A program made the position numbers and the translations under genes. The notes beneath the pieces were generated by a model. That model was not told the DNA's origin. It saw only the letters and a program-made list of their open reading frames with translations, and ran no database searches. This document shows positions 31,559-53,933 of a stretch of DNA of 64,000 nucleotides, piece after piece; position 1 is the first letter of the stretch, and each line of letters begins with the position of its first letter. The stretch is from Riemerella columbina (lineage in GTDB: Bacteria > Bacteroidota > Bacteroidia > Flavobacteriales > Weeksellaceae): contig NZ_CP103950.1 in assembly GCF_030517065.1 (NCBI RefSeq), positions 930,001-994,000 on the forward strand, given 5' to 3'.

Positions 31559-31628
31559 GTGGAATTTGCTTTGAAATTCAATTGCACCTTGCATGACCTT
31601 TATAGAGAAAACGACCGATTTAAGTGAG

Positions 31629-31815
31629 GTAAAAGTTACCTTAGTTGGAGTAGAAGTTACCTTAGTTGGGGTAAAGATTACCTTAGTTAGAGTAAAGGTT
31701 ACCTAAGTTGGAGTAAAGATTACCTTAGTTAGAGTAAAGGTTACCCAAGATGAAGTAAGAGTTACCCAAGTTGGAGTAAAAGTTACCTAAGATGAAGCAA
31801 AGGTTACCCAAGATC
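31629..31815. repeat. Tandem array of nine 21-bp units
   Basis: Nine head-to-tail units of exactly 21 bases, the first GTAAAAGTTACCTTAGTTGG+A at 31629 and the last, 19 bases long, ending at 31815. Units 3 and 5 are identical; others differ at 2-7 positions. The core GTTACC or ATTACC is present in all. Twenty-one bases are two DNA helical turns and also seven codons: on the plus strand the units read Val-Lys-Val-Thr-(Leu/Gln/stop)-Val-Gly, with TAA in units 4 and 8. An ATG at 31593 opens a 37-codon frame into the array that ends in unit 4. The array lies between two terminators, in the gap between convergent genes, so it is probably non-coding. There are no spacers. Confidence 0.92.
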
Positions 31816-49816: not shown

Positions 49817-50758
49817 TTACCCCAATCGTTTTACAGCTTCTACCACCGCTTGGGCGTCGATGTTGTATTTTCGCATAAGCTCTGCAGGGGTGGCAGACTC
49901 TCCAAAGGTGTCATTAACGGCGACAAATTCTTGGCGAGTAGGGTGCTTTCTGGCGAGCAATGCCGCGACGCTTTCGCCTAAACCGCCGATGATGTTGTGC
50001 TCTTCTGCCGTTACGATTTTTCCTGTTTTCTGCACCGATTTCAAGATGATTTCTTCATCTAATGGTTTGATGGTGTGGATGTTGATCACTTCGCAAGAGA
50101 TGCCTTCTTTCGCCAATTCTTCGGCGGCCACCAGCGATTCCCAAACGAGGTGCCCCGTGGCGACGATGGTAACATCGGAACCTTCTTGGAGCAAGATGCC
50201 CTTGCCGATTTCAAACGGCATATCCTCAGGGATAAAAACGGGTACGGCAGGACGCCCAAAACGCAGATAAACAGGCCCCTCATAGTCGGCGATGGCGAGG
50301 GTGGCGGCTTTGGTTTGGTTGTAATCGCACGGGTTGATGACCACCATTCCTGGGAGCATTTTCATCATTCCGATGTCTTCCAAGACTTGGTGTGTAGCCC
50401 CATCTTCGCCCAGAGTAAGCCCTGCGTGCGAGGCACAAATTTTCACATTTTTCCCTGAATAGGCGATGCTCTGGCGGATTTGGTCATAAACTCTGGAAGT
50501 GGAAAAGTTGGCAAAAGTACCGGTGAAAGGGATCTTCCCACCGATGGTCAGCCCTGCGGCGATGCCCATCATATTGGCCTCGGCAATGCCCACTTGGAAG
50601 AAGCGCTCAGGGGCTTTTTCGATGAATTTTTCCATTTTAAGCGAGCCGATCAGGTCGGCACAAAGGGCTACCACATTGGGGTTTTTATCTGCCAACTCGG
50701 CTAAGCCAGCCCCAAAACCACTGCGGGTGTCTTTCTTTTCTGTGTAGGTGTATTTCAT
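49817..50758 (-). CDS. Transketolase, C-terminal half (split enzyme)
   Basis: 313 residues covering the pyrimidine-binding and C-terminal domains of transketolase (pentose phosphate pathway, two-carbon transfer). Motifs: FFQVGIAEANMMGIAAGLTI with the Glu that activates thiamine diphosphate, SHAGLTLGEDGATHQ and YLRFGRPAVPV. It needs the N-terminal half encoded at 53082-53933. Split transketolases are normal in some phyla, but here the halves are separated by five unrelated genes and a repeat array. It is the last gene of the minus-strand cluster, so it can still be on one transcript with the others. Confidence 0.93.
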   Translation of the reverse strand: MKYTYTEKKDTRSGFGAGLAELADKNPNVVALCADLIGSLKMEKFIEKAPERFFQVGIAEANMMGIAAGLTIGGKIPFTGTFANFSTSRVYDQIRQSIAYSGKNVKICASHAGLTLGEDGATHQVLEDIGMMKMLPGMVVINPCDYNQTKAATLAIADYEGPVYLRFGRPAVPVFIPEDMPFEIGKGILLQEGSDVTIVATGHLVWESLVAAEELAKEGISCEVINIHTIKPLDEEIILKSVQKTGKIVTAEEHNIIGGLGESVAALLARKHPTRQEFVAVNDTFGESATPAELMRKYNIDAQAVVEAVKRLG

Positions 50759-50776: not shown

Positions 50777-51193
50777 TTAGTTTCCTCTGTAAGTAGAATA
50801 TCCGTAAGGGGACAGGGTGATAGGCACATGGTAGTGGCTGTGGTCCTTAATTTCAAAAACGACTTCTACAAAAGGGTAGAAAGAATCTTGCCCCAATGAG
50901 CGGAAGTAGGGAAGGGTGAAGAAGGTGAGTTTGTACACGCCTCTGTGGTCTACATTTTGTCCTTCTTTGAGAAAATCCTTCACCCTGCCGTTTGAGTCGG
51001 TGGTTTTTTGATCGACGATTTTCCAAGCATCGTGAGCGTCTTTTTTGGAGAGCTGGATTTTTACCCCTGGTGCGGGTTTGCCTTGCGTGATGTCTAGAAT
51101 GTGGCTAGATAGTTGGTATTTTGCCTGTTGTGTTTGTTGTGCAAAGCTGAAACTTGCTAACATTAATGCGAATAAAAAGATTGCTTTTTTCAT
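50777..51193 (-). CDS. Exported 5-hydroxyisourate hydrolase (transthyretin-like)
   Basis: 138 residues. A signal peptide (1-19, ending SFAQ) precedes a complete HIU hydrolase domain: QLSSHILDITQGKPAPGV with the first active-site His, the SNGRVKDFL Arg, and HYHVPITLSPYGYSTYRGN with the second His and the family's C-terminal Tyr-Arg-Gly. The enzyme hydrolyses 5-hydroxyisourate after urate oxidation; an exported form would act in the periplasm. No urate oxidase or OHCU decarboxylase is in the window. Its signal-peptide DNA is almost identical to that of the next gene upstream. Confidence 0.88.
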   Translation of the reverse strand: MKKAIFLFALMLASFSFAQQTQQAKYQLSSHILDITQGKPAPGVKIQLSKKDAHDAWKIVDQKTTDSNGRVKDFLKEGQNVDHRGVYKLTFFTLPYFRSLGQDSFYPFVEVVFEIKDHSHYHVPITLSPYGYSTYRGN

Positions 51194-51213
51194 AATAATG
51201 AATTTTTTATTTG

Positions 51214-51720
51214 TTAATTTTTATTGATAGAATATCCCATATTTTGAATGGCTTTTTGAGCTATTGAGTGGTCATTCTCGCCACTACCTCCACCAGAAAT
51301 TCCGATGCTGCCAATCAGCTCGCCATTAAGCCAAACAGGCGCGCCTCCGCCTAGCAATAATAGTTCTGGTAATGTGTTTAAATTTTTTGCCGTTTCGCTA
51401 TTTTGTGCATTTTTCATCAAAACGAAACTCGGCGTTTTTGTGGAAAGCGCTGTATAGGCCTTTCTCCGAGAAGCCTCCGTGTTGTGAGGTCCTACATCAT
51501 CTCCTTTTAAAAGTAAGATGGTTACCCCCGAATTGTTTAATACGGCAATGGAAACTTTTTTATTGAGTTTGCTGGCTTCAAGATTGGCTTGTTCGGCTAG
51601 TTTTAATGCGCCTGCCTGATTTAAACTCGGTGCTAATGAAACATGAGCCGATGGATTTTTTTGTTGCGCAAAACCGAAGCTCGCCAACATTAAGCTGAAT
51701 AAAAAGATTGCTTTTTTCAT
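51214..51720 (-). CDS. Exported GlcG/HbpS-like (heme-degrading family) protein
   Basis: 168 residues. Signal peptide 1-19, then a GlcG/HbpS (DUF336) domain: LKLAEQANLEASKLNKKVSI opening helix, VSIAVLNNSGVTILLLKGDD, and the closing GGAPVWLNGELIGSIGISGG with the conserved Gly-rich turn. Members bind heme or cobalamin, or have no known ligand. The function here is open. Located between the HIU hydrolase and an SMR transporter on the minus strand. The first 19 codons share near-identical DNA with the HIU hydrolase gene. Confidence 0.88.
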   Translation of the reverse strand: MKKAIFLFSLMLASFGFAQQKNPSAHVSLAPSLNQAGALKLAEQANLEASKLNKKVSIAVLNNSGVTILLLKGDDVGPHNTEASRRKAYTALSTKTPSFVLMKNAQNSETAKNLNTLPELLLLGGGAPVWLNGELIGSIGISGGGSGENDHSIAQKAIQNMGYSINKN

Positions 51721-51749
51721 ATGTAATAGTTTTAAATAATGATAATTTG

Positions 51750-52079
51750 TTAATGCGCTACGTTTTTAGAAAATAGATTCATCATCAAAACTCCAGCGAT
51801 AATCAGTCCGATGCCCAAGAGCGTAGCCCAGTCGGCAGGTTGCTTAAAAACGGCCATCGAAATGATAGCGGTGAGTGCCACGCCCATACCCGCCCAAATG
51901 GCGTAGGCCGTACCCAGCGGAATGCTTTTAATCGAGAGCGAAAAGCAATAGAAACTTGCCACATACGCCACCACGACAATGGCCGTAGGCAACGGCTTGG
52001 AGAAGCCCTCGGAGAGTTTCAAACTGGTGGAGCCCACCGCTTCCAGCACAATGGCCAAAAGGAGATATAAGTACTGCAT
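51750..52079 (-). CDS. SMR family multidrug/guanidinium-type transporter
   Basis: 109 residues with four membrane helices, the minimal EmrE/SugE architecture, working as a dual-topology dimer and proton-coupled exporter of cations. The membrane-embedded Glu is in AIVLEAVGSTSLK near residue 14 and the Trp-Gly motif is in AIWAGMGVALTA. Whether it belongs to the quaternary-ammonium (EmrE) or guanidinium (Gdx) branch cannot be decided by eye. Its ATG directly abuts the stop of the preceding coiled-coil gene (TAGATG). Confidence 0.92.
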   Translation of the reverse strand: MQYLYLLLAIVLEAVGSTSLKLSEGFSKPLPTAIVVVAYVASFYCFSLSIKSIPLGTAYAIWAGMGVALTAIISMAVFKQPADWATLLGIGLIIAGVLMMNLFSKNVAH

Positions 52080-52397
52080 CTACCTCTTATCTTCAATTCC
52101 GAATTCTTTCCATTGGCTTTGTTCAATGTCGAGCTTGATGCGCTTTTTCAGGTTGTTGTAAAGGGTCTGCATTTCGCCCAGTTTGCCTTCGAGGGCTTGG
52201 GTTTTGGTTTTGAGGTCGGCTTTGAGTTTTTCCTGCTCACTGTTGAGGGTTTCAATAGCGGTGCGGAGGTTTTCCAACTCAGTGATGTGGCTTTCATTCA
52301 CCCCTGCGGGGAGGTTGCTTTTGTGTCGGTTTAACCCGTCTGCCATTACTTTGGCTTGGGTGATACTTTCGGAGTAAGATATTTTCGATTTTGCCAT
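52080..52397 (-). CDS. Unknown coiled-coil protein
   Basis: 105 residues, almost entirely charged helix. Residues ~40-92 form a coiled coil (LRTAIETLNSEQEKLKADLK, QALEGKLGEMQTLYNNLKKR). No domain family is recognised. It resembles other small coiled-coil proteins common in Flavobacteriia and, faintly, the gene remnant at 25272-25487, but I cannot prove a relation. Its stop is directly followed by the SMR start, so the two are translated in series. The second 21-bp repeat array lies just upstream of its start. Confidence 0.7.
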   Translation of the reverse strand: MAKSKISYSESITQAKVMADGLNRHKSNLPAGVNESHITELENLRTAIETLNSEQEKLKADLKTKTQALEGKLGEMQTLYNNLKKRIKLDIEQSQWKEFGIEDKR

Positions 52398-52446: not shown

Positions 52447-52560
52447 GTAGGAACTGTTCCTACTTATCATATTTTCAATCCTACACTAGTAGGAGACTTT
52501 CCTACACTAGTAGGAGACTTTCCTACACCTGTAGGAGTGTTCCCTACACTTATACTATGT
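52447..52560. repeat. Second 21-bp repeat array with palindromic cores
   Basis: Starts with a palindrome AGTAGGAAC-T-GTTCCTACT (52447-52465), then tandem 21-base units: two identical copies of TCCTACACTAGTAGGAGACT+T (52479-52520), a diverged third (52521-52541) and a partial fourth. Each unit contains the inverted pair CCTAC / GTAGG around ACTA. On the plus strand the units translate to Pro-Thr-Leu-Val-Gly-Asp-Phe repeats inside a 53-codon frame (52414-52575) that has no sign of being a gene and overlaps the end of the next gene. The array is in the gap between two minus-strand genes. Confidence 0.85.
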
Positions 52561-53081: not shown

Positions 53082-53933
53082 TTAGTAGTCGGCTTTTTCG
53101 TCCATTTCAAGCTGGGCGAGGGCTTTTTCTAATTGCTCATCGTTCGGGGTTTTTCCGTGCCAAGCGTTGGTTCCCATCATAAAATCAACGCCGTTACCCA
53201 TTTCGGTGTGCATAATGATGGCGATGGGCTTGCCTTTGCCCGTTTCGGCTTTGGCTTGCTCTAAGGTGTGGATTACCGCCGAGAGGTTGTTGCCTTCTTT
53301 CAGCTCTAAAACCTTCCAATCAAAGGCTTCGAGTTTGGCGCGGAGGTTGCCCAAGGAAAGCACTTGGTCTACATCGCCGTCGATTTGTCGGTTGTTGTAA
53401 TCGATGGTGGCAATCAGGTTGTCCACCTTGTTGTGGCTGGCATACATCAGGGCTTCCCAGATTTGACCCTCTTGGAGTTCGCCATCGCCGTGAAGGGAAA
53501 AAACAATGCCTTTATCGTGGTTGAGTTTCTTGCCCAGCGCCGCCCCGATGGCTACCGAAAGCCCTTGCCCGAGCGAACCTGAGGCGATGCGCACCCCCGG
53601 CAGTCCTTCGTGCGTGGTAGGGTGCCCTTGCAGGCGCGAGTTGAGTTTTCGGAAGGTGGCGAGTTCCTCCACGGGGAAGAAGCCGAAGCGTGCCAAAGTG
53701 CTGTAAAACACGGGGGAAATATGCCCGTTGGAGAGGAAGAATAGGTCTTCATCCTTGCCTTCCATAGTGAAGGGCAGTTTGTAGTTCATCACTTTTCCGT
53801 AGAGTGCGGTGAAGAATTCCACACAGCCTAAGCTGCCGCCAGGGTGCCCCGAGTTCACGGCGTGTACCATTCGTAAAATGTCTCTTCTGATTTGTGTGGT
53901 AAGTTGTTTGAGGTTTTCTGTTGAAGTATCCAT
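53082..53933 (-). CDS. Transketolase, N-terminal half (split enzyme)
   Basis: 283 residues with the thiamine-diphosphate-binding domain: GHPGGSLGCVEFFTALYG and the metal/cofactor loop HGDGELQEGQIWEALMYASH. It works with the C-terminal half encoded at 49817-50758. It begins 20 bases after the stop of the upstream symporter and is probably co-transcribed with it. Downstream, a B-box protein, the repeat array and four other genes intervene before the C-terminal half. Confidence 0.93.
   Translation of the reverse strand: MDTSTENLKQLTTQIRRDILRMVHAVNSGHPGGSLGCVEFFTALYGKVMNYKLPFTMEGKDEDLFFLSNGHISPVFYSTLARFGFFPVEELATFRKLNSRLQGHPTTHEGLPGVRIASGSLGQGLSVAIGAALGKKLNHDKGIVFSLHGDGELQEGQIWEALMYASHNKVDNLIATIDYNNRQIDGDVDQVLSLGNLRAKLEAFDWKVLELKEGNNLSAVIHTLEQAKAETGKGKPIAIIMHTEMGNGVDFMMGTNAWHGKTPNDEQLEKALAQLEMDEKADY

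Follow-up and report, generated by a model that had tools for sequence, protein, structure and literature searches.

Two neighbouring genes in the window, the whole 64,000-nucleotide stretch of DNA that was analysed, encode exported proteins of unrelated families behind leaders of nearly the same DNA. Signal peptides are usually viewed as fast-evolving parts of one gene, and the locus raises the question of how two unrelated neighbours came to have a signal peptide in common that can be traced at the DNA level over two genera. The explanation that fits best, and that we regard as probable, is that one export signal, most likely that of the HIU hydrolase gene, was at least once transferred, through recombination or gene conversion, to the adjacent, unrelated HbpS-like gene. 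Descent of both leaders from one sequence is supported by the alignments below; transfer as its cause, the direction from HIU to HbpS, recombination as the mechanism and export that still works after the swap are what we infer from them.

The two genes and their products

On the minus strand, in transcription order, lie the N-terminal half of transketolase (53082..53933), a 157-aa protein, the 105-aa coiled-coil-like protein cc105 (52080..52397), an SMR-type small membrane transporter (51750..52079, PF00893), the HbpS-like gene (51214-51720), the HIU hydrolase gene (50777-51193) and the C-terminal half of transketolase (49817..50758). The two transketolase halves form the upstream and downstream edges of a gap of variable content, in which cc105 recurs beside HIU and HbpS genes. 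The transporter between cc105 and HbpS has no counterpart gene in the other loci compared, and it matched 22 NCBIfam models without reaching the cut-off of any.

The mature HIU hydrolase, transthyretin-related, is encoded with its stop codon at 50777..51124 of the minus strand. It fits PF00576 with E 1e-38 and 132.7 bits (cut-off 25.3) and TIGR02962, the 5-hydroxyisourate hydrolase model, with 132.8 bits (cut-off 87.45). The residues of the HIU hydrolase family are a His, an Arg, a further His and a C terminus of the YRG[ST] type. In an alignment with 7kcn, the HIUase-TTR ancestor, the H of SSHILD, the R of NGRV and the H of YHVP correspond, and the C terminus reads YRGN as against YRGS in 7kcn, so that the last residue differs. 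The gene product scores above the cut-off of the 5-hydroxyisourate hydrolase model, and hydrolysis itself is predicted. The mature HbpS-like protein with its stop codon (51214..51660, minus strand) fits PF03928 with E 7.9e-32 and 110.4 bits (cut-off 25), and it matches the extracellular haem-binding protein 3fpv with E 7.6e-18; its score is above the PF03928 cut-off, and haem binding or degradation is putative. Against the NCBIfam equivalogs NF007275 / PRK09732, the latter being GlcG, and NF002696 it reached 45.2 and 23.9 bits, far under their cut-offs of 246 and 146. The label "GlcG-like" in the preliminary description is therefore loose, since the protein passes the Pfam HbpS-like cut-off but misses both NCBIfam cut-offs by far, whereas its view that the mature parts are unrelated is borne out by the two different families, transthyretin/HIUase (PF00576) and HbpS-like (PF03928).

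Extent and structure of the shared leader

As had been described, with correct coordinates, 51 of the 60 leading bases match between the HIU and the HbpS-like gene, the first 24 being identical. The HIU signal peptide comprises 18 codons (MKKAIFLFALMLASFSFA; 51140..51193, minus strand), with cleavage before Q expected from the Q-rule, and that of the HbpS-like protein likewise 18 codons (MKKAIFLFSLMLASFGFA; 51667..51720, minus strand). The predicted cut is FA|QQ in both proteins, with Gln directly after it, in agreement with the Q-rule of Bacteroidetes, which places Gln right after the signal peptidase I cut (PMC5837995, as far as the part covered goes). The shared stretch stops just past this expected cut, at two glutamine codons, which occupy 51134..51139 in the HIU gene, where the shared 60 nt end, and 51661..51666 in the HbpS-like gene (both minus strand). 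A repeat search returned the same segment as the direct repeat D1, whose two 62-nt copies on the minus strand (51133..51194 and 51660..51721) are 85% identical and 527 nt apart.

The nine mismatches of the window pair fall in codons 9, 12, 13, 14, 16 and 18, and the changes in codons 12, 13, 14 and 18 are synonymous. At the border of leader and body the window HIU gene has an extra TQQ of 9 nt (51125..51133, minus strand), which the other three HIU leaders of this type lack and which may either be a copy made by slippage or the scar of a junction. The 30 nt upstream of the two genes are not unusually alike, as 15.5% of 3160 sample pairs of leader-like starts score as high. A gapped alignment was suggestive of a shared stretch running upstream past the start codon, yet the likeness did not exceed that of the sample and this candidate was rejected. 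Because the upstream 30 nt are unremarkable, the likeness between the two genes is essentially limited to the leader.

The segment that moved between these adjacent, same-strand genes would thus be a Sec signal peptide together with two glutamines past the cut. Recombination or gene conversion would have placed the HIU leader onto the neighbouring HbpS-like gene, and with the junction at the signal-peptidase site both proteins would remain in frame and exportable.

Distribution of the leader in related genomes

The leaders of 84 genes were compared, 46 of HIU and 38 of HbpS; HbpS paralogues below 50% identity were left out, identical copies were dropped, and at most 30 loci entered per search, so that part of the HIU and HbpS matches in the family was used, while some of the compared genes are nearly identical (the G004/G005 units). 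Four further genes were left out for want of a start (G331 HIU, G345 HbpS, G273 HbpS and the second HbpS paralogue of G053). The leader type of the window pair, here called L1, was found on HIU in the window, G053 and G355 and on the G002 HIU copy that lies at the transketolase gap; on HbpS it was found in the window, G004 and G005. Related bacteria carry L1 on HIU, on HbpS or on neither; among the genomes examined, only that of the window has it on both genes. On HIU the type spans two genera, and on HbpS it was seen in one.

Across all 1748 HIU x HbpS leader pairs the mean identity is 0.58 (sd 0.05), and the window pair ranks first with 0.84. Type L1 comprises four HIU and five HbpS leaders; of the 20 pairs across these two sets, 19 rank within the top 25, whose other six members (0.72-0.74) fall outside the L1 set. 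Among the pairs from one and the same genome (n=33), the window pair at 0.84 stands against 0.49-0.68 for the other 32. When the 60-base HIU leader of G355 was searched against nine whole genomes, eight matches were obtained in five genomes, all of them on HIU or HbpS genes at the transketolase locus: HIU in G355, G002 and G053, and HbpS at two places in G005 and at three in G004, the HbpS matches with E 1.2e-7 to 4.3e-10. With a threshold of E <= 0.001 this search missed both leaders of the window itself, and it can likewise miss diverged copies on other genes; at that threshold G001, G003 and G033 gave no match.

Since the HIU and HbpS proteins are unrelated, the shared leader points to transfer between genes, and since the genes are also adjacent, to a leader passed between neighbours. 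The preliminary description had recognised a signal copied from one gene onto the other; the passage between neighbours stands, and its scope was too narrow, as L1 is also present in other genomes. As to the local duplication proposed there, this mechanism, gene conversion and a crossover inside the leaders fit alike, with the direction from HIU to HbpS weakly favoured.

Phylogeny of bodies and leaders

In a quick tree the window, G053, G355 and G002b are united in one clade of HIU bodies (starred, SH-aLRT 95), and L1 therefore tracks the HIU clade across two genera. In the HbpS tree, calculated from 29 rows above 60% identity and without G033, the window body groups with that of G053 (94/82; 82% identity over 146 columns), and the L1-bearing bodies of G004 and G005 form a separate clade. 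The G053 HbpS leader is not L1-like, matching that of the window HbpS at 34/60 bases (0.63 gapped). It was considered as proof of replacement and rejected, because leaders drift that far at such mature divergence: relatives at a mature identity of 0.7-0.8 have a mean leader identity of 0.62, and those at 0.8-0.9 of 0.77, against 0.79 (mature) and 0.63 (leader) for the pair of window and G053. Simple drift may suffice to account for this leader. A single clade of the L1-bearing HbpS bodies alone was not rejected (p 0.23), and the bodies of the window, G053 and G004/G005 could be held as one clade without loss.

In the best leader tree the two window leaders are not paired, and a tree that pairs them is 0.56 lnL lower (p 0.41); in 62% of column bootstraps they are mutual nearest neighbours. 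Grouping of the four HIU leaders was not rejected (p 0.11), nor was that of the three HbpS leaders (p 0.16). Altogether five AU tests rejected nothing, and 60 bases do not allow formal dating; a single ancestral transfer and several transfers are both compatible with the trees.

The strongest alternative keeps the transfer and changes its timetable. HbpS would have received the leader once, in a common ancestor, the window copies would later have been re-homogenised over codons 1-8 by conversion, and the G053 HbpS leader would since have drifted beyond recognition. Over codons 1-8 the window pair is identical at 24/24 positions, whereas each of its members matches the other L1 leaders at 17-19/24, and three bases (sites 11, 16 and 24) are confined to the window pair. 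In columns 10-24 the two window leaders are mutual nearest neighbours in 99% of bootstraps, against 4% in columns 25-60. Over codons 9-20 the window HIU leader is closer to its HIU counterparts in G002b (30/36) and G355 (29/36) than to the window HbpS leader (27/36, the same value as for G053 HIU). The lossless single clade of HbpS bodies also agrees with this timetable. On the other hand, a GENECONV-like run test on 30 variable sites was not significant (pairwise P 0.21, global 0.83), and the HbpS tree joins the window to G053 and not to the L1-bearing G004/G005. Codons 1-8 may have the look of a conversion tract, which we do not claim, and we hold an old transfer with later conversion to be a serious but tentative possibility.

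The transketolase gap in relatives

The gap between the transketolase halves varies by species. It contains no ORF of at least 55 aa in G001, G033, G321 and G323, one doubtful ORF in G003, a single 376-aa gene of another kind in G142, and HIU with a 229-aa gene in G355. The G002 gap consists of cc105, HIU, a 159-aa gene and a block with DNA-modification-like genes (judged from translations), and the G053 gap of a 164-aa gene, cc105, two HbpS and HIU. G004 and G005 have cc105, HbpS, a 215-aa protein, a second HbpS paralogue and HIU, after which come further HbpS-HbpS-HIU units, two in G004 and one in G005 (tandem units at L083 6133-11517 and L080 6689-10520, respectively). At each joint of these units the DNA encodes MKYTYTEKK, the nine residues with which the transketolase C half begins. 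Straight after cc105, the gene that starts with an L1 leader is HIU in G002 and HbpS in G004 and G005.

Pairs of HIU and HbpS are also situated at suf-like iron-sulfur assembly genes, judged as such from reading, in G001, G002 and G005 (L081, L085 and L087), with cc105 present in L081 and L085 and not in L087. A second place in G004 (L084) shows the same cc105-HIU-HbpS order.

Because the surroundings of the locus show repeated rearrangement, recombination between leaders is plausible. As direct repeats 527 bp apart, the leaders would offer a site for deletion or regain of HbpS with HIU intact, and the loci suggest that a crossover within them could drop or add HbpS while HIU is kept in frame. 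A more far-reaching reading takes the leader as a recurrent recombination handle, behind whose resident signal peptide HIU and HbpS bodies were swapped, dropped and regained at the transketolase gap; we consider it rather doubtful. It would amount to exon-like modular exchange in bacteria, with joins at the signal-peptidase site that stay functional, an idea to which we likewise give little credence. If it were true, neighbouring exported genes could exchange tags or vanish without damage to the frame, and phylogenies or orthology assignments made with the leader included would be misleading.

The genome of the window is rich in tandem arrays whose period is exactly 21 bp: of 41 tandem-repeat rows in 464 kb, counted with their overlaps, 15 are of this kind. 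They occur in the window at 52479-52550 and 31621-31808 and at the loci L188-L200, L105, L108, L110, L111 and L115. Such a row lies upstream of nine of the 13 cc105-family genes that six of nine genomes contain, with the period kept and the letters of the unit not. Arrays are also located ahead of two L105 genes resembling one small protein family.

Direction of transfer

Passage from HIU to HbpS is weakly favoured, mainly because L1 is spread more widely on HIU (two genera) than on HbpS (one) and because the window HbpS leader has six private bases where the window HIU leader has two. Branch lengths lend this direction weak support: in the leader tree the end branches of the window HIU and G355 HIU leaders have a length of 0, compared with 0.12 for G053 HIU, 0.13 for G002b HIU and 0.09-0.17 for the HbpS leaders. 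The opposite course, with HbpS as the source and HIU as the recipient in the window lineage, could explain why the window HIU has an extra QQT ahead of its own QQAKYQ, with CAACAAACA only one base off the HbpS codons CAACAAAAA. The insert may however be plain slippage in a CAA-rich stretch, and both the HIU clade that L1 follows over two genera and the private bases speak against this course, which we consider unlikely.

Comparison with the genomic background

For a null distribution, the window and twenty 20-kb stretches from elsewhere in its genome were combined to 464 kb with 405 ORFs, in which an ad hoc rule without SignalP called 80 leader-like starts, giving 3160 pairs. These pairs agree on average at 22.2 of 60 bases (sd 3.9); the window pair reaches 51 and the runner-up 37. 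Given equal amino acids, 12 of the 16 codons with synonyms agree in the window pair, where 6.7-7.1 are expected (P 0.004-0.007). With the next best pair at only 37/60, codon or signal-peptide bias is no explanation of the likeness, and the account by codon bias or a generic leader was ruled out on the null and the synonymous agreement together. An equal likeness among many unrelated genes, named beforehand as the mark of such a bias, did not appear in the 464-kb sample.

In the genome of 2,044,714 bases, the 24-mer with at most two mismatches occurs solely at the two leader sites. Three mismatches add two more places, which were rejected as leader copies, being starts of other exported proteins that look like chance. 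One of them, PorQ-like as judged from its translation, is close to a second cc105 copy, a proximity judged to be coincidence. A 94-base query found the second leader with E 2.9e-14, and the best other place with E 8.7e-5 (37 nt, 84%). The search for further copies that the preliminary description had proposed thus yielded none beyond chance in the genome itself, and the same leader type in relatives. The exact 24-mer was found 0 times in viral contigs, and a contig scan gave one distant locus, in Flavobacterium lacus.

Selection on a control element common to both messages, a translation start or a small-RNA site, could have kept the first 24 bases, in line with the identity being strongest on the start-codon side. 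This is very unlikely, considering that the likeness of the upstream 30 nt is nothing unusual and that the 24-mer with up to three mismatches is absent from five other genomes of the genus. Convergence of leaders without common descent, from signal peptides and A/T-rich codon use, can draw on the lysine start, the hydrophobic core and the frequent AQ of leaders (35 of the 80 leader-like starts) and is nonetheless scarcely credible in view of the gap to the runner-up pair, the synonymous agreement and the 32 other same-genome HIU/HbpS pairs at background.

Relation to known systems

Ectopic gene conversion homogenises short tracts between paralogous genes of one bacterial genome. The window pair resembles this in that short tracts are similar at two places of one genome, and differs in that the genes are not paralogues and share the leader alone. 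For orthologues of Enterobacterales, gain and loss of signal peptides through acquired or eliminated N-terminal regions have been reported (PMC5952966, in the parts covered). There as, probably, here, exchange of an N-terminal segment and not point mutation alters a bacterial signal peptide, but the orthologues there are with or without a signal peptide, whereas both genes here have one and the sharing with a neighbour is at the DNA level; copying of a leader between adjacent genes is not described in the parts of that source covered. As in other Q-rule substrates of signal peptidase I, each of the two leaders has a terminal A with QQ after it, yet the rule, in the part of PMC5837995 covered, is general and predicts no shared DNA. 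Among the matches listed for the open-licence literature, at the level of titles and abstract openings, none concerned leader copying between neighbouring bacterial genes. The locus is a clean example of signal-peptide exchange, for which the earlier reading was right in kind and too narrow.

Pairing of HIU and HbpS genes

Of 320 family genomes, 94 had HIU matches (E <= 1e-20) and 37 had HbpS matches, and all 37 HbpS genomes also have HIU (chance about 5e-23 if the genomes were independent, which they are not). For 35 of the 46 HbpS matches, in 27 genomes, a listed HIU lies within 1.5 kb on the same strand, and in G273 a weaker HIU also adjoins HbpS; the count covers all 46 HbpS rows and part of the HIU rows, weaker rows of HbpS-less genomes being left out. 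HIU and HbpS are a recurrent gene pair. An exported HIU hydrolase together with an HbpS-like protein may point to a joint role outside the cytoplasm, perhaps in the handling of oxidants or of haem and iron.

Published work, in the parts covered, ties both families to urate or iron (PMC4991794, PMC5429918). In Streptomyces, HbpS-SenS-SenR lowers the expression of urate breakdown genes including HIU hydrolase (PMC4991794), and iron limitation raises the expression of a transthyretin-like gene of Riemerella anatipestifer CH-1 by 1.2 log2 units (PMC5429918, Table 2). The locus number of the CH-1 gene is six away from that of an "iron-sulfur binding protein", which Table 2 also lists (PMC5429918). 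At the suf-like locus of G005, six gene steps separate HIU from the iron-sulfur gene, the same distance as between the CH-1 locus numbers, and a correspondence between the CH-1 gene and this locus is offered as a lead only.
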